From positions 1 through 52,270 of the forward strand of contig NZ_SPQN01000016.1 of NCBI RefSeq assembly GCF_004571065.1: 52,270 nucleotides of DNA. Reading direction: 5' to 3'. The position numbers and the translations under genes are program-made. Below, one piece after another: positions 1,064 through 15,754 of this stretch. Within the stretch, counting starts at the first letter, position 1. Each line of letters begins with the position of its first letter. Under the pieces are notes generated by a model that did no database searches, was not told where the DNA came from, and saw only the letters and a program-made list of their open reading frames with translations. Source of the DNA: Geodermatophilus sp. DF01-2. GTDB lineage: Bacteria > Actinomycetota > Actinomycetes > Mycobacteriales > Geodermatophilaceae.

Positions 1064-1104
1064 TGGTGTCCGAGGGGCGACACGCTACTTCCGCACACGC
1101 CTGC
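1064..1104. repeat. degenerate att-like repeat, leftmost copy of the tRNA-Leu 3' end
   Basis: The sequence tggtgtccgaggggcgac (1064-1081) matches the last 18 nt of the tRNA-Leu gene, including CCA, at 17 of 18 positions. It is followed by acgctacttccgcacacgc, almost identical to the flank of the copy at 2496. This looks like a left att site or the remnant of an earlier integration, so 1064-2496 may be a separate small element. Confidence 0.7.
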
Positions 1105-1120: not shown

Positions 1121-1396
1121 TCAGCCGTAGACGTCGGCGCGGTGCGAGATGCGCACGACCCGGACCAGGATCTCGTCGTCGTGGATCGAGTAGATGACGC
1201 GGTACTGGCCTCGTCGCGCGGACCAGTACCCCTCGAGCTCGAAGCGCAGGGGCTTGCCGACGCGGTGGGGATCGGCGGCGAGCGGTCCATAGAGGAAGTC
1301 GACGACCGCGACTGCAACTGGCTCGGGAAGGTGGAGTTCGATGGCCCGCTTGGCGGCTGCCGACAGGACGACGGTGTAGGTCCGGGGCCCGGTCAC
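1121..1396 (-). CDS. relE: RelE/ParE-family toxin
   Basis: This 91-residue protein has the RelE pattern: YTVVLSAAAKRAIELHLPEP at the start, a middle segment GKPLRFELEGYWSARRGQYR, and the terminal strands VIYSIHDDEILVRVVRISHR. RelE-type toxins cleave mRNA in the ribosome. The arginines in ARRGQYR and near the C-terminus correspond to the usual catalytic surface. Its ATG overlaps the stop of the antitoxin gene by 4 nt (ATGA, 1393-1396), so the pair is one operon with the antitoxin first. Length and order are normal for the family, and the gene appears intact. Confidence 0.88.
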   Translation of the reverse strand: MTGPRTYTVVLSAAAKRAIELHLPEPVAVAVVDFLYGPLAADPHRVGKPLRFELEGYWSARRGQYRVIYSIHDDEILVRVVRISHRADVYG

Positions 1397-1668
1397 CCGC
1401 GGCGGGCTGCCAGTGCGGCCCGCACCTGGGCCTCGTCGTAGACCTCGCCGCCGGCCATCTCGGTCTCGGCCTGCCGGATGTCGGACCTGGCTTCGGGATC
1501 CGACAGGATCTCCAGCGTTTCCATCAGGGATTCGTAGTCCTCGACCGCGAGGAGTACGGCGACCGGGCTGCCGTTCTTGGTGATCGTCACCCGTTCATGG
1601 GTTCCGGACACCTCGTCGATGACCTGGCTGAAATGAGCCTTGACCGCGGCGAGCGACTGCGTGGTCAT
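1393..1668 (-). CDS. Phd/YefM-family antitoxin
   Basis: This 91-residue protein starts MTTQSLAAVKAHFSQVIDEV and continues ERVTITKNGSPVAVLLAVEDYE, the typical Phd/YefM DNA-binding half. An acidic C-terminal tail would wrap the RelE toxin. The ATG at 1668 is preferred over the TTG at 1674. An AGGA lies upstream, and a short palindrome (1669-1684) directly abuts the start, as expected for an autoregulated antitoxin promoter. The gene is the first of a two-gene operon with the RelE toxin. Confidence 0.88.
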   Translation of the reverse strand: MTTQSLAAVKAHFSQVIDEVSGTHERVTITKNGSPVAVLLAVEDYESLMETLEILSDPEARSDIRQAETEMAGGEVYDEAQVRAALAARRG

Positions 1669-1684
1669 GACCAATATCCTGGTC
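1669..1684. promoter_or_regulatory. candidate operator of the relE/yefM-type operon
   Basis: GACCA-ATATCC-TGGTC is a perfect 5-bp inverted repeat with a 6-nt AT-rich centre. It ends one base before the antitoxin ATG, where Phd/YefM proteins normally bind to repress their own operon. Binding is inferred. Confidence 0.4.
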
Positions 1685-2453: not shown

Positions 2454-2497
2454 CAGCAGAACCCCCACGGCCAGGCGATCGTGGGGGTTCTCTGCTG
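2454..2497. terminator. hairpin beside the island's left att site, possible old tRNA terminator
   Basis: cagcagaacccccacg (2454-2469) pairs with cgtgggggttctctgctg (2480-2497) across a 10-nt loop, with a 2-nt bulge. Before island insertion it would have lain just downstream of tRNA-Leu on the minus strand, where a terminator is expected. Its inner arm is also the inverse of the tRNA T-arm, so it could serve as the left half of attB. Confidence 0.55.
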
Positions 2498-2536
2498 GTG
2501 TCCGAGGGGGGACACGATACTTCCGCACACGCCTGC
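2496..2536. repeat. attL of the Wadjet island
   Basis: tggtgtccgaggggggac (2496-2513) is an exact copy of the last 18 nt of tRNA-Leu. It is followed by acgatacttccgcacacgc, whose cgcacacgc (2524-2532) is the inverse complement of gcgtgtgcg at 11022-11030 beside the tRNA copy. These are the two arms expected when an attP has been split by integration. Confidence 0.8.
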
Positions 2537-2923
2537 CCATTCGGGACCATCGAGCCTGACCTAGGCGCTGACCTGCAGTGATGGATTCGGAGGTCATTAC
2601 CTAGGACGCGGCTCAGCGCCCCTTGGCTGATCCCGACGGCTGATCGGCGGCGATCTCCCCGTCCCAGTGACTGATCACATGGAGGACGGCGTCCCACATG
2701 TCAGGACAGGGGCGCGGTCAACACGGTTTCGCGCCCGACGGGCTCCCAGCGTCCCAACCACGTGTGGGGCTGGCCTCCCACGGCGGTCGCGGGGGTTCAG
2801 CCCTTTCGAGCAAGCCACCGCCGCCCTGCGTGCCCAACTACGGCAGCAACTGTGGCAACTTCGTCGGTGCCTCCCTCTACTGTGTCCGCCACCTGGCTGA
2901 ACGCGACGGAGGGAGTGCGGGGC
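2537..2923. other. leader region upstream of jetA
   Basis: This is the non-coding left end of the island. A frame open from 2762 into jetA lacks protein-like character before 2924. A possible -10 element, TACTGT, lies at 2878-2883, but no convincing -35 was found. Confidence 0.4.
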
Positions 2924-4438
2924 GTGAGCACGATCGTCGGAGACCTTGCCCGCGTCCGGTCAGCCTTCCGGAAGCCGACGTTGACCCTGCTTGCCCGCCG
3001 CAAGTGGGCGCCGCTGATCCTGGCCGTGTTCACCTCCCAGTTCTCCCGGGACCGCCCCCGCATCCCGGCCGAGCAGTTCCATGCCCAGGTGGAGACGCTG
3101 CTGGACGAGTTGCGCCTCGCCGGGGAGGAGGTGCCGGACGGCACCGCCCGCGACCTGTGCCGCGGCTGGGTCGACGGCCAGTGGCTGTCGCTGAGCGCGA
3201 CCGAGGATGACGTCGAGGAGTACGGCCTCACCTCGCACGCGCAGGAGGCGCTCGGCGTCATCGACCGGCTCGACAGCGACCGGCTGGAGTTCGGCGAATC
3301 CCGGATCAAGACGATCCTGGAAACGGCCCGCCGGGTGGCCACCGAGGCCAACCCCGACCGGGAGGAGCGGCTGCGCCGCCTGGACGAGGAGATCGGGCGG
3401 CTCACCGTCGAACGGGACCGGATCGCCGCCGGAGGCGACATCCAGGCCGCCACCGTCGAGCAGATGCTCGACCGGTACAACAACCTCAACGCGTTGCTCG
3501 CCGCGCTGCCCGGCGACTTCCTCCGGGTCTCCGAGGCGGTCAAGCGGATCCACCGCGACATCGTCGCCGAGTTGCGCGCCGACCAGCGCCGCTCCGGGGA
3601 GGTACTGGACGACTACCTGCGCCAGGCCGACCGGTTGATGCAGGAGTCGCAGGAGGGCCGGGCGTTCACCGGCGCGGTCGACCTGCTGCGCGACGAGGTG
3701 TTGATGGACGACCTGAGCGAGGATCTCGACGCCATCCTCGCCCACGAGTTCGCCGAGCGGCTCACCCCCGCGCAGCGGATCGAACTGCGCCGCACCGTCT
3801 ACGGCATCCACCGCGGCATGGACACCGTGCTCGCCCAGCGTCGCCGCCTGTCGGCGACGCTGCGCACCCACATGGCCCGGCACGACCCGCTGCGGGACCG
3901 GGAACTGGACGAGGCGCTGCGCGTCGCCGACACCGAGATGCTGCGCTGGATGGAGACCGCCGGGCCGCGCGCCCGGGTGCCGGTCGACCTGGGCCTGGCG
4001 CAGGTGGAGATCGGGCACCTGCGGGCCCGGCTCTACGACCCGCAGAACGACGCGCCCCCGCCGCCGCTAGAGACCCACGCCGGCGGGGAGGACACCGTCG
4101 ACTTCGACGACGTCCGCAAGCAGGGCGGCCCGACCCTGGCAGCGCTGCGGGCTGCGATCGAGGAGGCGCTGGGCGAGTACGAGTCGGTGACCGCGGCCGA
4201 GGTGTTCGACGCGCTGCCCGATGACCTGCGGCGGCCGGTGGAGATTCTCGGGCTGCTGCACCTGTCGGTCATCGAGGCCGGAGCCGAACCCGACCCAGGG
4301 GACACCGCCGTGTTCGAGGCCATCCGCCCCGGTGGGGACCGGCGGTCGTTCCGCGCCCCGAACCTGCTGCTTACCGGCGTCCCGTCCGCGGGCCCGGACA
4401 TCCCTGCCGCTGCTGCCGACGAGGAGTCCCCGCGATGA
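2924..4438 (+). CDS. jetA: Wadjet subunit JetA (DUF3375, MksF-like kleisin)
   Basis: This 504-residue protein opens VSTIVGDLARVRSAFRKPTL and continues LARRKWAPLILAVFTSQFSR, the typical DUF3375 start. A long coiled-coil middle (roughly residues 125-260) and a helical C-terminal winged-helix-like region follow. JetA is the kleisin-type bridge of the JetABC condensin, which extrudes loops on small circular DNA. GTG 2924 is chosen because GGAGGG at 2908-2913 precedes it and family similarity begins there; the open frame extends 54 codons further upstream without recognisable sequence. The stop overlaps jetB by 4 nt (ATGA). It is the first gene of a tight four-gene operon. Confidence 0.93.
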   Translation: MSTIVGDLARVRSAFRKPTLTLLARRKWAPLILAVFTSQFSRDRPRIPAEQFHAQVETLLDELRLAGEEVPDGTARDLCRGWVDGQWLSLSATEDDVEEYGLTSHAQEALGVIDRLDSDRLEFGESRIKTILETARRVATEANPDREERLRRLDEEIGRLTVERDRIAAGGDIQAATVEQMLDRYNNLNALLAALPGDFLRVSEAVKRIHRDIVAELRADQRRSGEVLDDYLRQADRLMQESQEGRAFTGAVDLLRDEVLMDDLSEDLDAILAHEFAERLTPAQRIELRRTVYGIHRGMDTVLAQRRRLSATLRTHMARHDPLRDRELDEALRVADTEMLRWMETAGPRARVPVDLGLAQVEIGHLRARLYDPQNDAPPPPLETHAGGEDTVDFDDVRKQGGPTLAALRAAIEEALGEYESVTAAEVFDALPDDLRRPVEILGLLHLSVIEAGAEPDPGDTAVFEAIRPGGDRRSFRAPNLLLTGVPSAGPDIPAAAADEESPR

Positions 4439-5385
4439 CCGGCCCGTACGCCTCGAGCGGGGCGGACACCGAGACGGTGGACTTCGACCTGCACGACAGC
4501 GAGGTCGTCGACCCGGACGACGACCGGCTCGGCGTCGACGACCTCGACGCCGACGACCACGCCGGCGAGGGGATCGCCGCCGGACCCGACGACGAGGACG
4601 ACTGGATCGGCGAGGACGAGCCGCCCACCGGTCAGGAGGCCCTGTTCGTCGGGGACGTCGGCGCCCTCCCGCTGAAGGCCCGCGAGGCGCTCGTCGCCCT
4701 GCTCCGGCGGCGCTACATCTCTGCCGACCGCCACCCCATCGAATGGCGCTCCGTGATCGACTACGAGGGAGCGCTGCGCTCCCGGCTCAACGACCAGTTC
4801 CTCCAGCTGGTCGTCGACCACGAGTACGAGGTCGCCTACAAGACCCAGGCCGTCTCCGAGGCCGGCCGCAAGTTCCCCACCCTGCTCTACGACCAGGCGT
4901 ACAACCGCGAAGAGACGATCCTGCTGCTGCTCCTGCGACGGGAGATCCGCAAACGGCAGAAGCAGGGCGACGACAAGGTGTTCGTCGACCGGGCCACCCT
5001 GATCGAATGGGTCAGCGACTACCGGCCGGTGTCGGCGACCAACCAGGTTCGGGACAACCGGTCCGCCGGGAACGCCATCGACGCGCTCATCAAGAACGAC
5101 ATCCTGCTGCGCACCAAGGTCGAGGACCGCTACGTCGTCTCCACGATCATCGAGGTACTTATGCCCGTCGAGTCGATCAAGGCGCTCGGCGCGTGGCTGA
5201 AGGCGCAGAACACCGGCGCCGCGGGCGGCGACCCCGACGCAGCAGATGACACGGCCGACGGGGCGGCCGACGACGACCTGGACGGCACCGACGACGTCGC
5301 GGCCGACGACGACGTCATGGGCGCCGACGCGGGAACTGCCGCGGACGACGAGGAGACCAGCGACGAGCAGGACGAGGAGCGCTGA
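4435..5385 (+). CDS. jetB: Wadjet subunit JetB (DUF4194, MksE-like KITE protein)
   Basis: This 316-residue protein has a DUF4194 core at about residues 65-250, with landmarks LLRRRYISADRHPIEWRSVI, ALRSRLNDQFLQLVVD and YRPVSATNQVRDNRSAGNAI. The core is the winged-helix KITE subunit that binds JetA. It is flanked by unusually acidic tails rich in Asp, Glu and Ala at residues 1-64 and about 255-316. Such tails occur in high-GC homologues but are long here. ATG 4435 overlaps the jetA stop, and jetC begins 3 nt after the jetB stop, so the genes are translationally coupled. Confidence 0.92.
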   Translation: MTGPYASSGADTETVDFDLHDSEVVDPDDDRLGVDDLDADDHAGEGIAAGPDDEDDWIGEDEPPTGQEALFVGDVGALPLKAREALVALLRRRYISADRHPIEWRSVIDYEGALRSRLNDQFLQLVVDHEYEVAYKTQAVSEAGRKFPTLLYDQAYNREETILLLLLRREIRKRQKQGDDKVFVDRATLIEWVSDYRPVSATNQVRDNRSAGNAIDALIKNDILLRTKVEDRYVVSTIIEVLMPVESIKALGAWLKAQNTGAAGGDPDAADDTADGAADDDLDGTDDVAADDDVMGADAGTAADDEETSDEQDEER

Positions 5386-5388
5386 GGC

Positions 5389-8300
5389 GTGATCGATCAG
5401 CCCATCCCGGGGATGGCAACCCATGGCCTCAACGTCACCCAGTGGCGCGCGGAAACCCTCCAGGTGATCAACTGGGGCGGGTTCGCCGGGCACCACAGCG
5501 TGCCGCTGGACACCGTTAACAACCTGTTCACCGGGCCGTCCGGCAGCGGGAAGTCCACCCTCCTCGACGCCTACCTGGCGCTGATGATGGACTCCCGCAC
5601 CCCGCTCAACGGGGCCTCCAACGACAACGCCACCGGCCGGGCGCGCTCTGCCGAGCAGCGCTCCACCCTCTCCTACGCCCGCGGGCAGATCGGCACCACT
5701 CGCGACGACTACGGGGCCCGCCCCAAGGTGCTGCGCGGCGACGGCGGCAACACCTGGTCCGCGATCGCCATGACCTGGACCCGCGGCGACGGGGAGAAGT
5801 TCACCGCGCTGCGCCTGTACTGGGTCCCCGCCGCGGCCAGCAAGCAGACCGACGTCAAGATGCACCTGGCCACCATCTCCGGCGAGTTCAACCTCGCCTC
5901 GGTCGAACCGCACGCCGTCCACCAGTTCCATCACACCCGGATGAACGCCGCGTTTCCCGGGCTGACCTTCGCCGACTCCTACCTGAAGTTCGCCGCCGGT
6001 CTGTTCAAGCGGCTCGACATCGGCGCCAACGGCGACGGCGCGTCGGCGCTGAAACTGCTCGCCCGCATCCAGGGCGGACGGCAGGTCGCCTCCGTCGACG
6101 GCCTGTACAAGACCCTGGTCCTGGAAGAGCCGAAGACCTACGAGGCCGCCGACACCGCCATCGCGCACTTCCGTGAACTGGAAGGCTCCTACGAGCAGAT
6201 GCGCAACGCCGAGGAGCAGGTGGCGACGCTGAAGGTCATCGCGACCGCCTACCCGGCGCTGCGCGAGGCCGAGCAGGAAGCGTTCCTCATCGACACTTTC
6301 CGGGTCAGCGAAACCGAACCCGACGCGGCCACCCCGCTCAACCTGTGGCGCTACCGCACCGAGCGCGACCTGCTCGATACCGAGGTCGACACCATCATCG
6401 CCGAGAAGGAGGAGCAGGACGGGATCAAGCGGTCCGCCGGCCGGGAAGCGCTCAGCCTGGAGGCGCAGATCACCGAGAATCTCGCCCAGCAGCGCGACAA
6501 CGGTGGCGACGCCCTCCAGCAGGCCGAAACGGACCTGAAGACCTTCACCGAGGCCCGCGACGAGACCCAGCGCGCCCGGGCCCGGTTCGAGCAGCAGACC
6601 CTGCTGGTCGGCCCGACCCCGGCCACCCGGGAGGACTTCACCGCCCTGCACGTGGCCGCCGGGCAGTTCCTCGCCGGATACGCCGCCGCCGAAGAAGACC
6701 TCGCCGACCGGATCAAGGCCGCCCACCTGCACGCCGCCCCCTACCTCACCGAGCAGGACACCCTGCTCAAGGAGAAGACCTGGCTGCTCGGCCGCGGCGA
6801 CCTCATCCCGCAGAACTTGCACGAGGCCCGGGTGCTCATCGCCGAACGGGTCGGCCTGGACCCCGCCGACCTGCCCTTCGTCGCCGAACTGATCGACCTC
6901 GCGCCGGAACACAACCAGTGGCGGGAGGCCGCCGAACTGCTGCTCGGCGGGTTCGCCCGCACCATGCTCGTGCCCCGCACCCAGGGCCGCGGCTTCCGCA
7001 CCCGGCTCAACGCGTTGCGGCTCAAGCCCCGCATCAACTTCACCCTCGCGGCCATCGGTGCCCCGACCCGCACCCTGGACGAGACGCTGCTGCCCGGACG
7101 GCTGATCTTCCGCGACTCGCCGTTCACCGGCTGGCTGCAGGCCGAACTCGGCCGCCGGTTCGACTACGCGTGCGTGCCTGACCCGACCGCGTTCGCCGAC
7201 GACACCCGCCGCCGGATCACCCTCACCGGTCAGACTCAGGACGGGGACCGCGGCGCGCACGGCGGCCACGGGCAGCGTCCCATCCTCGGGTTCTCCAACG
7301 AGCGGGCCATCGCCGAGATCAACGACCGGCTCGGCGAACTCGCCAACATCCTCGGCGACGCTGCCCGCGCCGAGCAGCGGCTCACCGCCGAACGGCAGCA
7401 GTTGGGCAACATCCGCGCCGCCCACCAGGTCGTCCGCAACACCGCCTGGGACACCATCGACGTCGCCGCCGCGACCGCCCGGGTCGAGGCCAAGACCGCC
7501 GAGCGGGACGCGTTGCTGGCCAACAGCGACATCCTGCGCACCCTCCAGAAGACCGAGCAGAACCTGCGGGAGCGGCGGGACAAGGCCGTGCGGGCCAAGA
7601 ACGCCGCCGAAGACCGCATCGAGGTCCTCAACGGCCAGCATGGCGCGCTCGCCACCCGGCAGGACACGGTCGGTGATCTGCTCGCCGACCTCGACGACAA
7701 CCCGCACGTCAGCCTCGCCGACGACCAGGCGAGCAGGCTGGTCGCCGAGTACGAGAAGTTCTCCACCACCGGCGCCCACGCCGACTTCGAGAAGGTGTTC
7801 GACCACATCCGCCGGGGACTGGCCGAGCAGGTCCGCAAGGCCCGCGAGGACATCAGGACGCAGACGACCATGCTCACCAACGCGTTCGAGGCGTTCCAGC
7901 GGAACTGGCCCAACCGCAACCTCGGCACCGGCGTGGAGTCCTACCCCGACTACCGGGCCATCCTCGACGACCTGATCGCCGAGGGGCTGCCGCAGCGCCG
8001 CGAGACGTTCACCGCCAAGGTCGTCGACTGGTCCGGGGAGGACCTGCTCAGCCTGCACAGCGCGTTCCGGGAGGCGTTGGAAGAGATCTCGGACCGGCTC
8101 GTCCCGGTCAACGAGATCCTGCACGGGCTGGCGTTCGGGCCTGGCCGGGATCGGCTGTGCATCACGCTGCGCTCGCTCGGCGGCCGGGAGCAGGACCGCT
8201 TCCGGCGCGAGTTGAAGATCCTCGCCTCGCACACCACCGCCGACCTCTCCCCGGACGACATCGAGGCCCGGTTCGAGGAGTTGCGGGCGTTCATCAAGCG

Positions 8301-8775
8301 GATCCGCACGGTCGACGACGGCGGCACCTCCGGTGACCGCGACGCCCTGCTCGACGTCCGCCGCCACATCCACATCGAGGCCGAGTGCCTGGACAAGGAC
8401 ACCGGCGAGCAGATCAGCATCTACGACAGCCTCGGCAACAAGTCCGGCGGCGAGACCCAGGAGTTGATCGCGTTCATCGTCGGCGCGGCGCTGCGCTACC
8501 AGTTGGGCAATGCCACCCAGGTCGTGCCCACCTACGCCCCGGTGTTCCTCGACGAGGGGTTCGTCAAGGCCGACGCCGAGTTCGCCGGGCGCGCCGTCAA
8601 CGCCTGGCGCGGCCTCGGCTTCCAGTTGATCATCGCCGCCCCGCTGGACAAGTACACCGCCATCGAGCCGTACATGGACCAGACGTTCAACGTGGTCAAG
8701 ACCGCCGACGGGCATACCCGCCGCCAGCGCGTCGTCGGGCTCACCCCGGCCCGTCCCGTCCCCCGGATGTCGTGA
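5389..8775 (+). CDS. jetC: Wadjet subunit JetC (SMC/MukB-like ATPase)
   Basis: This 1128-residue protein has SMC architecture. The Walker A GPSGSGKST is at residues 49-57, followed by long coiled coils. A hinge-like globular segment near residue 500 (LIDLAPEHNQWREAAELLL) separates the coils. The signature motif NKSGGETQE is near residue 1018 and the Walker B VFLDEGF near residue 1050. All ATPase motifs are intact. JetC dimerises through the hinge and drives loop extrusion with JetA and JetB. GTG 5389 follows a purine-rich GAGGAGCGCTGAGG. The stop overlaps the jetD GTG by 4 nt. Confidence 0.96.
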   Translation: MIDQPIPGMATHGLNVTQWRAETLQVINWGGFAGHHSVPLDTVNNLFTGPSGSGKSTLLDAYLALMMDSRTPLNGASNDNATGRARSAEQRSTLSYARGQIGTTRDDYGARPKVLRGDGGNTWSAIAMTWTRGDGEKFTALRLYWVPAAASKQTDVKMHLATISGEFNLASVEPHAVHQFHHTRMNAAFPGLTFADSYLKFAAGLFKRLDIGANGDGASALKLLARIQGGRQVASVDGLYKTLVLEEPKTYEAADTAIAHFRELEGSYEQMRNAEEQVATLKVIATAYPALREAEQEAFLIDTFRVSETEPDAATPLNLWRYRTERDLLDTEVDTIIAEKEEQDGIKRSAGREALSLEAQITENLAQQRDNGGDALQQAETDLKTFTEARDETQRARARFEQQTLLVGPTPATREDFTALHVAAGQFLAGYAAAEEDLADRIKAAHLHAAPYLTEQDTLLKEKTWLLGRGDLIPQNLHEARVLIAERVGLDPADLPFVAELIDLAPEHNQWREAAELLLGGFARTMLVPRTQGRGFRTRLNALRLKPRINFTLAAIGAPTRTLDETLLPGRLIFRDSPFTGWLQAELGRRFDYACVPDPTAFADDTRRRITLTGQTQDGDRGAHGGHGQRPILGFSNERAIAEINDRLGELANILGDAARAEQRLTAERQQLGNIRAAHQVVRNTAWDTIDVAAATARVEAKTAERDALLANSDILRTLQKTEQNLRERRDKAVRAKNAAEDRIEVLNGQHGALATRQDTVGDLLADLDDNPHVSLADDQASRLVAEYEKFSTTGAHADFEKVFDHIRRGLAEQVRKAREDIRTQTTMLTNAFEAFQRNWPNRNLGTGVESYPDYRAILDDLIAEGLPQRRETFTAKVVDWSGEDLLSLHSAFREALEEISDRLVPVNEILHGLAFGPGRDRLCITLRSLGGREQDRFRRELKILASHTTADLSPDDIEARFEELRAFIKRIRTVDDGGTSGDRDALLDVRRHIHIEAECLDKDTGEQISIYDSLGNKSGGETQELIAFIVGAALRYQLGNATQVVPTYAPVFLDEGFVKADAEFAGRAVNAWRGLGFQLIIAAPLDKYTAIEPYMDQTFNVVKTADGHTRRQRVVGLTPARPVPRMS

Positions 8776-10007
8776 AGACCCCGGACGGCCTGCTCGTCGA
8801 CCTGCGGCGGCGCGTCGGCAACACGTGGGCCGACACCCTCACCGGCCGGCCCACTGTCCAGCCCACCGGCGAGCCCGGGGATCCCGGGGACGCCGGACGG
8901 CCGGTGTGGCCGCTCACCCTGCCGCTCGGCAAACCCACCAAGGCCGACCTGGACACCCGCTGGACCGACCTGCGCCGCCTGGCCATCGACTGGCGCACCT
9001 GGGCCGACGAGCGCGGGCTGCCCTTGAAGTGGGAGACCCGGATGGTGCGCGGCACTCCGCAGCCGCTGCCCACCCACCTCACCATCCCCGACATCGACAG
9101 CGCCGCCGCGCTGCTCGGCGACGGCTGGCCCGAGCGCCTGGCCCGCGCCCGCACCCGGCACGCCGTCCTGGCGGAGAGGTTTCCGCACGCCGCCGCCGGC
9201 GCCACGCTCCGCGCCGTGGACCGGCTCACCGACATCGACTTTGGGCTGCTCTGCGACGCCGCCGCCTGGTTCGCCACCCACGACGCCACCGGCTACACCC
9301 CGCGGCAGGTGCCGATCGAGGGCCTGCACGGCAAATGGCTTAACCGCAACCAGGCGCTGGTCACCCGGCTCGCCGGACGCGACACCCTCGGCCTGGTCGG
9401 CCGCCCCTCCCGGGTCCACTTCACCTACCTGGACCCGGCGCACCGGGCCGCCGGGGGACGCCACCACGACAGCCACACCCTCGGCGACACCACGACCCCG
9501 GCCTATCCGCCGAGGATCGCGGTCATCACCGAGAACAAGGACTCCGCCGTCTACTTCCCCGAGGTGCCCGGCGGCATCGCGATCGAAGGCAACGGCGACG
9601 CCGCCATCCGCGTCCTCCGCATCCCGTGGCTGGCCGCGGTGCCCGCGATCGTCTACTGGGGCGACATCGACGCCGACGGCTACGAGATCGTGCACGCCCT
9701 GCGCGACGGCGGCCTGACCGTCACCACCATCCTCATGGACGGTGCCGCCTATACCGGCTACGAGCGATTCGGCGCCTGGACCGACGACAAGGGCGCGCCC
9801 ATCGGTTGCGCTGATCGTCAGGATTTGCACCGGCTCACCGACGCTGAGTGGGCCGTGTACGAGCAGATCACCGACCCGTCCTGGACCCGCGTCCGCCGTG
9901 TCGAGCAGGAACGCATCCCCCTCGACGTCGCGGTGCAGGCACTGGTGACGACGGACTCCCGGCTACCCGGCCGGGTTCCCGTCTCCGGGCGTCCGGCGGT
10001 CGCGTAG
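8772..10007 (+). CDS. jetD: Wadjet nuclease subunit JetD (DUF3322-DUF2220, Toprim-like)
   Basis: This 411-residue protein has an N-terminal DUF3322 half (KPTKADLDTRWTDLRRLAID) and a C-terminal DUF2220 Toprim domain. Toprim motifs are visible: a glutamate in VITENKDSAVYFP near residue 250 and the acidic pair in YWGDIDADGYEI near residue 294. JetD is the topoisomerase-VI-A-like nuclease that cuts circular DNA when JetABC has extruded it. GTG 8772 overlaps the jetC stop (GTGA). It is the last gene of the operon and appears complete, although the terminal PGRVPVSGRPAVA looks unstructured. Confidence 0.93.
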   Translation: MKTPDGLLVDLRRRVGNTWADTLTGRPTVQPTGEPGDPGDAGRPVWPLTLPLGKPTKADLDTRWTDLRRLAIDWRTWADERGLPLKWETRMVRGTPQPLPTHLTIPDIDSAAALLGDGWPERLARARTRHAVLAERFPHAAAGATLRAVDRLTDIDFGLLCDAAAWFATHDATGYTPRQVPIEGLHGKWLNRNQALVTRLAGRDTLGLVGRPSRVHFTYLDPAHRAAGGRHHDSHTLGDTTTPAYPPRIAVITENKDSAVYFPEVPGGIAIEGNGDAAIRVLRIPWLAAVPAIVYWGDIDADGYEIVHALRDGGLTVTTILMDGAAYTGYERFGAWTDDKGAPIGCADRQDLHRLTDAEWAVYEQITDPSWTRVRRVEQERIPLDVAVQALVTTDSRLPGRVPVSGRPAVA

Positions 10008-10154
10008 CGCGGCGGGGTCGGACAGATCCAGCCGGACGGCCGTCCCAGGCTCAACGCTGGCGGCGGCGTCGCGGCGGGCGGCGGTGCTCGTACGGCCACC
10101 GGCCCGGACCATCCCAGCGGCCGGAGGGCCAGAGCCCGGTCAGCAGGTACTGGC

Positions 10155-11057
10155 GGGTGATCCGCCGGAACCCGCTGCCCTCCGACGCCGCACCGCGTCG
10201 AGCGACTGCTCGACCTGACCGACGTCGCCGCAGGCACGGTCACGAAGTTCCAGCGGAGCGCTCCCGACAGGATCGTCACCAGCCTGCGCCCGTCGCACGT
10301 GGGGCTCGTCTCCCAGGAGGAGTTCGACCAGGTGCAGACCCTCATCAGGTCATCGGCCGACGCGGGCGGCACCAAGCCGCGGTCCGTGCGTGCCGCGACG
10401 TCGCCCTATCAGCTCCGCGGCCTCCTCCACTGCCGCCTCTGCGGTCGACGCATGTCTGGTCACCGGCGCGGCCCGACGCTTTACTACCGGTGCCGCGCTG
10501 CGGACCTGATCTCGTCGCAGCGCGAAAGGCATCCGAGCATCGTCTACGTCCGCGAGGACACGCTTGTGCCGTTGCTGCAGGAGTGGCTGCTTGGCTTCTT
10601 CGCGCCTGATCGGGTCAACGAGACCCTCGAGGCGCTCGTCGGCGCGAACGAGCCCTCCTTGGCGGCATCAACGCGGCGCGCGGTGATCACCGGCCGCCTG
10701 AGGGACGCGGAGAAGCGCCTTGCCCAGTACAAGGCTGCCCTCGGACAAGGAGCGGACGTCGCCCTCGTCAGTGCCTGGATCAACGAGGCGACCGCGGACA
10801 TCGCCCACGCGCGGCTCGACCTGACCACCGCCGACAGTGCCGTGCCACAGGAGATGAGCCGCGAGGAGTTGGAGCGAGTCGTCAGCGACATGTCGCTGGT
10901 CGTCGCCAGGCTCGCCTCAGCCGATCCAGCCACGAAGGCCGCGCTCTACCGCGACCTCAGCCTGCGCCTCACGTACGACTACGACCAGCGGGAGGTCGAG
11001 GCGGAGGTCAGCACAGCCGAAGCGTGTGCGAAACGTGGTGTCCGAGGGGGGACTTGA
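10155..11057 (+). pseudogene. C-terminal remnant of a large serine recombinase (island integrase)
   Basis: From about 10200 the plus strand encodes RLLDLTDVAAGTVTKFQRSA, then PSHVGLVSQEEFDQVQ, a zinc-ribbon (LLHCRLCGRRMSG ... YYRCRA), a coiled coil (ITGRLRDAEKRLAQYKAALG) and a C-terminal strand. This order is the recombinase and zinc-ribbon half of phiC31-type integrases. A preceding piece, NPLPSDAAPR, is in another frame, so there is a frameshift near 10195. The N-terminal resolvase domain with the catalytic serine is absent. The longest intact reading starts at GTG 10299. The reading frame crosses the att core, and its TGA stop is supplied by the tRNA T-arm. Confidence 0.8.
11022..11053. 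repeat. attR of the Wadjet island, overlapping the tRNA-Leu 3' end
   Basis: The arm gcgtgtgcg (11022-11030), 5 spacer bases and the 18-bp core (11036-11053) form the element half of the att site. The tRNA T-arm continues to the right. Confidence 0.78.
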
Positions 11058-11123
11058 ACCCCCACGCCCGATAAAGGGCACTAGCACCTCAAGCTAGCGC
11101 GTCTGCCATTCCGCCACCCGGAC
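11036..11123 (-). tRNA. tRNA-Leu (anticodon GAG)
   Basis: The complement strand folds as a class II tRNA. The acceptor GTCCGGG pairs with CTCGGAC, the anticodon stem CTAGC/GCTAG encloses TTGAGGT (anticodon GAG), a long variable arm TGCCCTTTATCGGGC follows, and the T-arm is CGTGGGGGTTCAAGTCCCCC. The discriminator is A and CCA is encoded (11036-11038). The tRNA decodes CUC/CUU leucine codons. Its 3' end is the island's integration site. Confidence 0.96.
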
Positions 11124-13928: not shown

Positions 13929-14066
13929 GCCGTCCTTCCAGGCCGCCCGGGCGGCGGCCGAACCCTGTCGACCCTGGCACGTCCGGGCGGCGAGAGCGAC
14001 CGCAGGGCCGGAGGGGCGCAGGGGGCCGTGAGCGTCGTCACGCAACGGTCTGGCAGGGTCGCCGGT

Positions 14067-15023
14067 GTGCGTGCATGGCGGGTCCACGAACTCGGCGATC
14101 CCTCGACCGCCCTGACCCTCGACGAGGTCGAGCGGCCGACGCCGGCCGAGGGGCAGTTGCTGGTCCGGGTGCGGGCGGCGGCGCTGAACTTCCCCGACGT
14201 CCTCATGGCCGCCGGCCGGTACCAGGAGCGCCCCCCGCTGCCCTACACCCCGGGCATCGAGCTGTGCGGCGAGGTCGTCGGCACCGGTCAGCGGGTGCTC
14301 GGCTCGCCCTCCGGTGGGCCCGGCGCGTTCGCCGAGTACGCCCTCATGGACGCGAACGCCGCCTGGCCGGTGCCCGAGGGCATGTCCGACGAGAAGGCCG
14401 CCGCGCTGTACCTCACCTATCAGACCGGCCACGTCGGCCTGCACCGCCGCGCGCACCTCCAGCCGGGGGAGTGGCTGCTGGTGCACGCCGGCGCCGGCGG
14501 GGTGGGGTCGGCCGCCATCCAGCTGGGCAAGGCCGCCGGTGCGAAGGTCATCGCCACCGCCGGCGGCGCCCGCAAGGTCGAGGTGTGCCGCGAGCTCGGC
14601 GCCGACCACGTCGTCGACTACACGACCGAGGACTTCGTGCCGGTGGTCAAGGAGGTCACCGGCGGCACCGGCGCCGACGTGGTCTACGACCCGGTCGGGG
14701 GTGACGTCTTCGACCGGTCGCGGAGGTGCATCGCCTTCGAGGGCCGGCTGGTCGTCGTCGGGTTCACCAGCGGCCGCATCCCCGACGCCCCGGCCAACCA
14801 CGCGCTGGTCAAGAACTACAGCGTCGTCGGCCTGCACTGGGGGCTCTACCGCCGGATGGAGCCGTCACTGGTCGCCACGACCCACGAGGAGCTGACCAGG
14901 CTGGTGGAGGGCGGCCAGGTCGATCCGCTCGTCGGCGAGGTGCTCCCGCTGGACCGGGCCCCGCAGGCGCTGGCCCGGCTCGCCGACCGCAGCACCGTCG
15001 GCAAGGTCGTGCTCGTCCCCTGA
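14067..15023 (+). CDS. NADPH:quinone oxidoreductase, zinc-independent MDR family
   Basis: This 318-residue medium-chain reductase starts MRAWRVHELGDPSTALTLDE and continues through a GroES-like fold (LNFPDVLMAAGRY, TPGIELCGEVVG). The Rossmann motif is VHAGAGGVGSAAIQLGKAAG, followed by ELGADHVVDYTTEDF. The zinc ligands of alcohol dehydrogenases are absent, as in quinone oxidoreductases and crotonyl-CoA-reductase relatives. GTG 14067 is chosen because family similarity starts there and a weak -10 (CAGGGT) sits 7 nt upstream. It probably reduces quinones or enones; the natural substrate is unknown. Confidence 0.88.
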   Translation: MRAWRVHELGDPSTALTLDEVERPTPAEGQLLVRVRAAALNFPDVLMAAGRYQERPPLPYTPGIELCGEVVGTGQRVLGSPSGGPGAFAEYALMDANAAWPVPEGMSDEKAAALYLTYQTGHVGLHRRAHLQPGEWLLVHAGAGGVGSAAIQLGKAAGAKVIATAGGARKVEVCRELGADHVVDYTTEDFVPVVKEVTGGTGADVVYDPVGGDVFDRSRRCIAFEGRLVVVGFTSGRIPDAPANHALVKNYSVVGLHWGLYRRMEPSLVATTHEELTRLVEGGQVDPLVGEVLPLDRAPQALARLADRSTVGKVVLVP

Positions 15024-15054
15024 CCGTCGGCACCGGGCCGCCGTCCCGCGAGGC

Positions 15055-15261
15055 TCAGATGTGCGGCTTGGGCAGGTAGGACAACCGCGCCCGGCGACGC
15101 AGGATGGCCTTGCGCGTGCCGTCGGCGTGCAGCTGCAGCCGGGCCAGTTCCCAGCCACCGGTGTCCGCCTGCAGGCTCAGCATGGTCGCCGCCGCGGACC
15201 GGGACGTGCCCGGTGGGATCCGCAGCGGCGCGAACTCGTACTCCCCGGCGACCGCCTCCAT
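15055..15261 (-). CDS. DUF5703-type small protein
   Basis: This 68-residue basic protein reads YEFAPLRIPPGTSRSAAATM, then a helix, GGWELARLQLHADGTRKAIL and a basic tail RRRARLSYLPKP. The RIPPGTSR and GGWEL...DGTR signatures match the DUF5703 family of small actinobacterial proteins, whose function is not known. The start may be ATG 15261 or a GTG a few codons upstream. It is convergent with the quinone oxidoreductase gene, 31 bp away. There are no membrane segments. Confidence 0.72.
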   Translation of the reverse strand: MEAVAGEYEFAPLRIPPGTSRSAAATMLSLQADTGGWELARLQLHADGTRKAILRRRARLSYLPKPHI

Positions 15262-15487
15262 CCCGCCGATTGTGCCCGTCGGGCGCCGGGTGGTCACGGG
15301 GTCCTCCTCCCGGTCCCCGACGAGCGCGGGGTGTCCCCGGCCCGCCGGCCCCCGTGCCCGGGAGGTGCTCCGTCCCCGAGGTGAGCTCGCCGGCCCGGCC
15401 CCTGCGACGCCGTCTCCGGACTGCCCGGCGCCGCCACGGACGGCAGGATGGGGCCGACCCCATCCCCTCGATGTGACGGAGGACGAC

Positions 15488-15754
15488 GTGACAGCTCCCG
15501 GCAGCGACGTGCCCGACGCCGACCGTACGGAGCAGGAGGCCCCACTCGACCCGCCGGGCGTCGCGCTCGCTGGTGACGCCACCCCGCCCGGGGAGGGCGT
15601 TCCCGAGGCCGACGCCCTCGAGCAGCAGCTGGCCGCGCGGCCCGGAGAGGCCGGCAGCCCGCTGGGGCCGGTGGGCGACCGCGAGGCCGACGCAGCCGAC
15701 GTCCTCGAGCAGGAGGCCGACGTCCCCGTCGACGAGGACGACACCCCCCTGTAG
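15488..15754 (+). CDS. small acidic protein of unknown function
   Basis: This protein of about 88 residues is strongly acidic (AP, DP, EAD and EQ repeats) and ends DVLEQEADVPVDEDDTPL. PEADxxEQ/DVLEQ units occur three times (DADRTEQEAP, EADALEQQLA, EADAADVLEQEA), suggesting an internally repeated, probably disordered polypeptide. GTG 15488 has GGAGGA 4 nt upstream; GTG 15473 in the same frame is the alternative. Small acidic proteins of this style are common in Geodermatophilaceae. No function can be assigned. Confidence 0.55.
   Translation: MTAPGSDVPDADRTEQEAPLDPPGVALAGDATPPGEGVPEADALEQQLAARPGEAGSPLGPVGDREADAADVLEQEADVPVDEDDTPL

Follow-up and report, generated by a model that had tools for sequence, protein, structure and literature searches.

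A type I Wadjet operon in a likely non-autonomous cassette at the tRNA-Leu(GAG) gene of Geodermatophilus sp. DF01-2

How does a complete anti-plasmid operon come to lie between two copies of the end of a tRNA gene, and can it still move from there? The question is raised by the type I Wadjet operon jetABCD of Geodermatophilus sp. DF01-2 (genome G000), which is located next to a tRNA-Leu(GAG) gene on contig NZ_SPQN01000016.1 (G000:C76). The window analysed is this whole contig, 52,270 nucleotides from a draft assembly of 199 contigs. Type I Wadjet systems act on small circular DNA: it is recognised and extruded by JetABC, and JetD is the subunit that cuts it. We consider it likely that the segment 2496-11053 is a complete operon of this type carried as a non-autonomous cassette bounded by attachment (att) sites, the tRNA-proximal unit of an array formed by serine-recombinase accretion.

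The operon comprises the same four genes in the same order as known type I Wadjet systems, each matched by the PADLOC model of the corresponding type I family (Table 1), and its completeness, as claimed in the initial annotation, is confirmed. The tight spacing described there is also found at all three junctions: an ATGA overlap between jetA and jetB, a 3-nt gap between jetB and jetC, and a GTGA overlap between jetC and jetD. The sequence GGAGGGAG is positioned eight bases upstream of the jetA GTG start. JetC exhibits the ATPase domains AAA_29 and SbcC_Walker_B and JetD exhibits JetD_C, presumably a Toprim-like domain, which together are the domains of a type I system. Comparison of JetC with the solved JetC chains gave a match to 8as8 (3.1e-46), and JetD could be aligned to MksG (8b7f, 1.7e-17). 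The proteins are nonetheless divergent, the nearest JetC in the order sample being 43% identical, and an NCBIfam search returned no name for the jet genes. By analogy, the operon most likely works as other type I Wadjet systems do, and the array would then provide the host with a barrier to plasmids as one among several exchangeable cassettes. A second, different type I jetABCD-like operon, recognised by the PADLOC models JetA1, JetB1, JetC1 and JetD1, is present on contig C166 of the same genome (L077:5868-13436).

Table 1 Features of the jet unit and its surroundings in the window.
Feature	Position	Strand	Remarks
jetA (DUF3375)	2924-4438	+	best start GTG 2924; PADLOC JetA1 4.8e-168; Pfam
jetB (DUF4194)	4435-5385	+	PADLOC JetB1 2.3e-74; Pfam
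jetC (SMC-like ATPase)	5389-8775	+	PADLOC JetC1 E = 0; Pfam AAA_29, SbcC_Walker_B
jetD (Toprim nuclease subunit)	8772-10007	+	PADLOC JetD1 1.3e-96; Pfam DUF3322/JetD_C
Large serine recombinase, C-terminal remnant	10182-11057	+	open frame; open reading frame (ORF) 10299-11057; stop in tRNA gene
tRNA-Leu(GAG), integration target	11036-11123	-	
tRNA-side att: P' arm (GTGTGCGAAACGTG) and core	11024-11053	+	
Distal att of jet unit: core 2496-2513 and P arm	2496-2536	+	
Third att copy: core 1064-1081 and 23 bp P arm	1064-1104	+	P'-like GTGTGC arm on left
Terminator-like hairpin (by eye)	2456-2496	+	directly left of core, right end of neighbouring unit
Toxin-antitoxin pair: ParE-like 1121-1396, Phd/YefM-like 1393-1674	1121-1674	-	unit 1066-2498

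The repeated sequence, referred to as the core, is the 18-bp 3'-end sequence of the tRNA, TGGTGTCCGAGGGGGGAC. It is exact at 2496 and 11036, which agrees with the proposal that jetABCD lies between two copies of the tRNA 3' end, and it recurs with one mismatch at 1064. That the repeats reflect chance or an assembly artefact, with jetABCD being ordinary chromosomal sequence, is hardly credible. Although the draft state of the assembly could be taken to favour an artefact, the arms that flank the cores are conserved and the copies stand on a single strand across many genomes; chance was rejected as the window contains three core matches at up to three mismatches versus 0.21 expected.

The paired att sites of the jet unit at the tRNA 3' end carry recombinase-type arms, an inverted GTGTGC...GCACAC pair as found with the serine recombinase, the outer arms being compatible with the attP of a serine recombinase, and the att copies at 1064 and 2496 have 41 bp in common at 95% identity. 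Judging from position and arms, the modules would have been inserted by a family of large serine recombinases whose target is the 3' end of tRNA-Leu(GAG). It is improbable that tyrosine integrases using the same tRNA 3' end made the array and that the serine recombinase is a bystander. Tyrosine-integrase-like genes (by eye) do occur beside the tRNA in two relatives (G010 and G006), and core copies with another arm type are seen in G010 and G018, but the arms of the jet unit are the inverted pair of the serine recombinase, and its P arm, the element side of the att site, extends the recombinase frame to a nearby stop.

The recombinase of the jet unit is reduced to its C-terminal part. The remnant aligns to residues 277-567 of the 567-residue tRNA-proximal recombinase of Geodermatophilus amargosae (G001) with 57% identity, and its final codons and stop (11055-11057) are inside the tRNA gene. 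Pfam analysis of the ORF 10299-11057 identified the recombinase zinc-ribbon (Zn_ribbon_recom) as the only domain; the resolvase domain, the catalytic domain of a large serine recombinase, is absent. The description of the operon as carried by its own serine-integrase island is thus unsupported, because the integrase lacks its catalytic domain. That the island is autonomous and mobilised by an intact integrase of its own, as the recombinase homology and the matching att arms might suggest, is very unlikely and was rejected on the same ground; moreover, the intact relative has no further match elsewhere in the DF01-2 genome at E<=1e-40. One other gene with the PF07508 domain occurs in this genome, on contig C106. 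Since the local recombinase is left as a C-terminal fragment only, the jet unit is now non-autonomous. It is probably no longer able to move alone, and would be mobile only with a recombinase supplied in trans.

Intact relatives do exist at this site. At the same tRNA, G. amargosae carries a tandem pair of related, full-length large serine recombinases (L072:12167-13837 and 14001-15704), both with resolvase, recombinase and zinc-ribbon domains. PF07508 is present in 17 of the 26 genus genomes, these two genes being the only ones beside this tRNA. A homologue in G018, ~50 kb from its tRNA, aligns from residue 59 only and is 5'-truncated. Two further observations concern related genes elsewhere. 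In G189:C2:129682-131342 the match to a recombinase homologue is split in two, the parts overlapping around residue 275, not far from the start point of the remnant, and in G. sabuli a P-arm copy (L258:2817-2848) located ~160 kb from the tRNA is 0.2 kb from a weak PF07508 match (G022:C24:370475-370612).

As the initial annotation suggested, jetABCD is nearly the whole cargo of its unit, the recombinase remnant being the only addition. The two together occupy 2514-11035, and the gaps at 2514-2923 and 10008-10181 are too short for the transfer (tra) or replication (rep) genes of an actinomycete integrative and conjugative element. With flanking att sites and no functional integration or transfer genes, the unit corresponds to a cis-mobilizable element (CIME). 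CIMEs, in the available part of a review (PMC5704250), are likewise att-bounded, have lost the integration gene and accrete in tandem; the arrangement described here differs in that some whole short modules are common to several species while their neighbours are unrelated.

It is quite possible, if less than probable, that the unit is the decayed remainder of a larger actinomycete conjugative element or prophage with jetABCD as cargo, that an internal deletion removed the catalytic half of the recombinase along with the transfer genes, and that the unit never moved at its present size. The remnant begins abruptly mid-domain after a 174-bp gap behind jetD, five of the six g19 genomes (inferred to be Mycobacterium) carry a pair of core copies on a single contig at a spacing of 8.8 to 69 kb, and, in the available part of Ghinet et al. 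2011 (PMC3218068), serine recombinases serve conjugative elements of Mycobacterium at a tRNA-Leu gene. Against such an origin stand the recurring modules of 0.8 and 1.9 kb described below, which leave little or no room for a 567-codon recombinase and cargo, and the jet module of Modestobacter lapidis, which at 8.7 kb is close in size to the jet unit.

The third core copy at 1064-1081, which had been overlooked, indicates a tandem array in which the jet unit (2496-11053) lies nearest the tRNA. The impression that the operon sits alone is not sustained, because the jet unit is one of several array units, with the toxin-antitoxin unit and more behind it. The P'-type arm to the left of 1064 makes this copy a junction of two array units and is a sign of a third unit that continues off the contig. 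Two small ORFs at 366-1020 form the right end of this third unit, and a similar ORF (by eye) closes the tRNA-proximal unit of G020 (L075:14711-14983). Contig C153 of the same genome contains three core copies on one strand and an 86% copy of the toxin-antitoxin (ParE/YefM) stretch, and the hairpin region 2456-2496 has an 84% match there. From the core copies and the toxin-antitoxin copy, C153 is probably a continuation of the same array. Amid its core copies (L156:155-2404 and surroundings) are a TOTE-type primase-helicase, an SNF2 helicase and a PIN-domain protein. Homologues of the window toxin-antitoxin unit begin at the core in six other genome stretches (G316, L225, L255, L261, L266 and L277), M. 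lapidis among them.

Similar arrays are found throughout the genus. To the right of the tRNA, an M20 peptidase gene preceded by tRNA-Leu(gag) is conserved in 26/26 genus genomes; the opposite side varies. Core copies at up to one mismatch were surveyed in 27 array sequences, representing 24 of the 26 Geodermatophilus genomes and M. lapidis with two stretches each for G000 and G018; G016 and G021 were excluded as their contigs end ~2 kb or less from the tRNA. All 69 copies, 25 of which are the tRNA's own, are on one strand and none is on the opposite strand, with the orientation of C153 chosen by the analyst. At least one extra copy is present in 15/24 Geodermatophilus genomes. Since the 3'-side stretch per genome is uneven, ranging from 2.4 kb (G005) to 77 kb (G019), genomes free of extra copies may hold one further out; G001 and G005 have extra copies on other contigs. 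A search of genome_contigs (84,980 species genomes) for the P-arm pattern returned 63 stretches, of which 59 bear Geodermatophilaceae names, the remaining four being metagenome-assembled genomes (MAGs) labelled Pseudonocardiales (one), Frankiales (two) and Tetrasphaera (one).

The closed modules (n=77) have a median length of 2.7 kb, a value biased by the choice of stretches. Comparison of the modules, from which same-genome pairs (except the two G000 contigs) and named stretches duplicating numbered genomes were dropped, revealed four whole-module matches between genomes. A 1.9 kb module is 94% identical between G. obscurus and G. pulveris, and a 0.8 kb module is 83% identical between M. lapidis and Blastococcus; in both pairs the two flanks could be compared and show no homology. 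The other two pairs both involve the MAG L285 and have one side beyond comparison, and one of them has a 45-bp match on the other side. In 39 further rows, counting reciprocals, the homology begins at the core and the module is not spanned. A separate 2.7-kb segment (UvrA-like by eye), 95-98% identical in L067, L069, L073 and L074, is separated from the tRNA by 187-229 bp in two genomes but by ~1.5 and 6.3 kb in two others, as if displaced by insertions.

Wadjet genes themselves recur near this tRNA. The window operon is absent from the 25 genus relatives, in which JetC matches were obtained in five only and were partial or 27-36% identical. One of these five, G005, has a different jet operon at the same site: the end of jetC and jetD precede the tRNA att, jetD ending ~0.3 kb from it, and the contig ends on the other side. 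In M. lapidis (G350), a different type I operon fills an att-bounded module at -11439 to -2734 from the tRNA core. PADLOC identified JetA, JetC (27% identical) and JetD in this module and did not recognise jetB; a ParE-like fragment (by eye) is located behind. Among 112 family genomes, JetD matches (E <= 1e-15) occur in 16, and in five of these (G000, G005, G350, G033 and G339) JetD lies 3' of tRNA-Leu(gag) and no more than 5 kb away. The initial annotation had tied jetABCD at this position to flanking 18-bp repeats. This stands for the window operon, whose two cores are exact, whereas the different jetABCD of G033 and G339 lacks a second good core copy: besides the tRNA's own core, the sole match has two mismatches and lies ~0.85 kb from the tRNA, between operon and tRNA. 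Without a flanking core pair at these loci, Wadjet near this tRNA is evidently not always accompanied by repeats. In another family, jetABC (L152:5340-12106) lies ~1.2 kb 5' of tRNA-Leu(gag), with the serine recombinase located 3' of the tRNA, and no jetD turned up at that locus; jetD was not found adjoining jetABC in G274.

Homologues of the intact recombinase are present in 52 of 298 order genomes (E <= 1e-40). Among the 30 loci fetched for the best matches, tRNA-Leu(gag) is at the recombinase 3' end in 26, the exceptions being L110, L122, L123 and L133, and the recombinase frame crosses a core copy in 28. In 21 of the 30 the frame is open for >400 codons and terminates exactly 17 bases past the start of the core, with the C-terminal sequence VRGGT (VRRGT in L130); the stop codon comes from sequence beyond the core, which is the tRNA in 20 of the 21. 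The g19 genomes have recombinase homologues of 46-48% identity, the fetched ones being at tRNA-Leu(gag).

At the distal copies the same frame continues into the element. Read in this frame, the distal att at 2496 reaches a stop after 19 codons. In the genus set, the first stop falls at codon 12-24, a range fixed after the distances had been inspected, in 20 of 28 distal copies, compared with 6/28 and 4/28 in the other frames and with a null mean of 5.0 and maximum of 12 (2000 runs); the P-arm class falls in this range without exception (17/17). The named-genome set, which overlaps the genus set in some copies, gave 58/73, or 55/68 representatives, versus 9/68 and 13/68 in the other frames and a null mean of 13.3 and maximum of 26 (1000 runs). 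In 15 tRNA-less stretches from other genera, the first stop is at codon 12-24 in ten, at codon 5 in three, and later or lacking in two; six of the ten are the g19 genomes, several of them near-identical, which have it at codon 19 in 6/6. From this continuation of the frame, attP appears to be situated within the recombinase gene, and integration would replace the tail of the protein.

The recombinase was also sought on free phage genomes, and none of 50,697 phage records matched at E<=1e-30. In IMG/VR, 17 stretches fit a pattern and none encodes a relative, as judged by a single-protein query that detects close relatives only. Two plasmid matches were obtained, a Streptomyces one at tRNA-Leu(gag) and a Mycolicibacterium one with an internal stop and no core within 400 bases. 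Because no excised attP was seen in the phage, IMG/VR or plasmid searches, the tail change rests on the two ends read separately.

A broader proposal is advanced tentatively, and we regard it as rather unlikely. The tRNA-Leu(GAG) gene of Geodermatophilaceae might be the entry point of an integron-like cassette array served by a large serine recombinase in trans, in which short modules (toxin-antitoxin, Wadjet and possibly other defence genes) are exchanged between species. The recombinase, with attP in its own 3' end, would have the final part of its frame, in most cases 12-24 codons counted from the core, swapped for a tRNA-encoded stop, which might switch its activity. Chromosomal integrons, characterised by the tyrosine recombinase IntI and attC cassettes, are directional arrays of short modules with toxin-antitoxin and defence cargo. 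The likeness is one of layout only; the array described here begins at a tRNA and is associated with a serine recombinase.

Several points weigh against a serine-recombinase cassette array. No excised circle or recombination was seen, and an intact recombinase of this kind beside the tRNA was found by PF07508 only in G. amargosae among the 26 genomes, so that the agent moving most modules was not observed. G033 and G339, from two other genera, carry their jetABCD ~3.5 kb from the tRNA without bounding cores; having common flanking genes (by eye), they represent one event at most. At nine of the 11 jet loci examined, the 14-19 kb read contains no copy of the core, even when two mismatches are allowed. 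The contig stops at window position 1, which places the full array beyond view, and the left flank of the jet unit is off the contig, which places an empty site with matching flanks beyond comparison. Tyrosine-integrase-like genes (by eye) adjoin the same tRNA in some relatives (L066:15458-16720 and L069:15110-16315), so part of the arrays may be theirs. The left arms at these two loci are terminator-type, and two recombinase classes seem to use one core.

Parts of this picture have precedents. In the available part of Ghinet et al. 2011 (PMC3218068), eight Mycobacterium serine recombinases are at one tRNA-Leu gene and the use of tRNA genes by serine recombinases is termed rare; given that report, the target preference of the recombinase is not new. 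The Mycobacterium conjugative elements resemble the jet unit in their serine recombinase and tRNA-Leu target. Unlike them, the jet unit lacks an intact recombinase as well as genes for transfer or replication, and it belongs to an array of short modules. The Dehalococcoides ssrA islands with DsiB (McMurdie et al. 2011, PMC3146451, available in part) likewise combine a serine recombinase at an RNA gene with tandem islands bounded by a 3'-end repeat; some lack an integration module, and the recombinase gene overlaps attL, as here. They differ in having a tmRNA target and dehalogenases among the cargo. The stop of dsiB is only beyond attL, and a coding role of the ssrA part was thought unlikely; in contrast to dsiB, the element side (P arm) here also closes the recombinase frame in most copies.

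Both the system, type I Wadjet, and the kind of vehicle, accretion by serine recombinases at an RNA gene, are thus known, and the unit is distinguished by being non-autonomous and by belonging to an array in which some short modules are common to several species. Neither Wadjet as cargo of a serine-recombinase unit at tRNA-Leu nor an exchange of modules of this kind was found reported in the literature searched, which excluded most subscription journals. The locus illustrates how an anti-plasmid system could be carried about in compact form, in a stack of modules that builds up behind a single tRNA gene, and tRNA-Leu(GAG) provides a defined site for tracing the gain and loss of Wadjet across the family. 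With common short modules and a recombinase gene that overlaps its own att site, cassette exchange and integration-dependent control are open to direct test.

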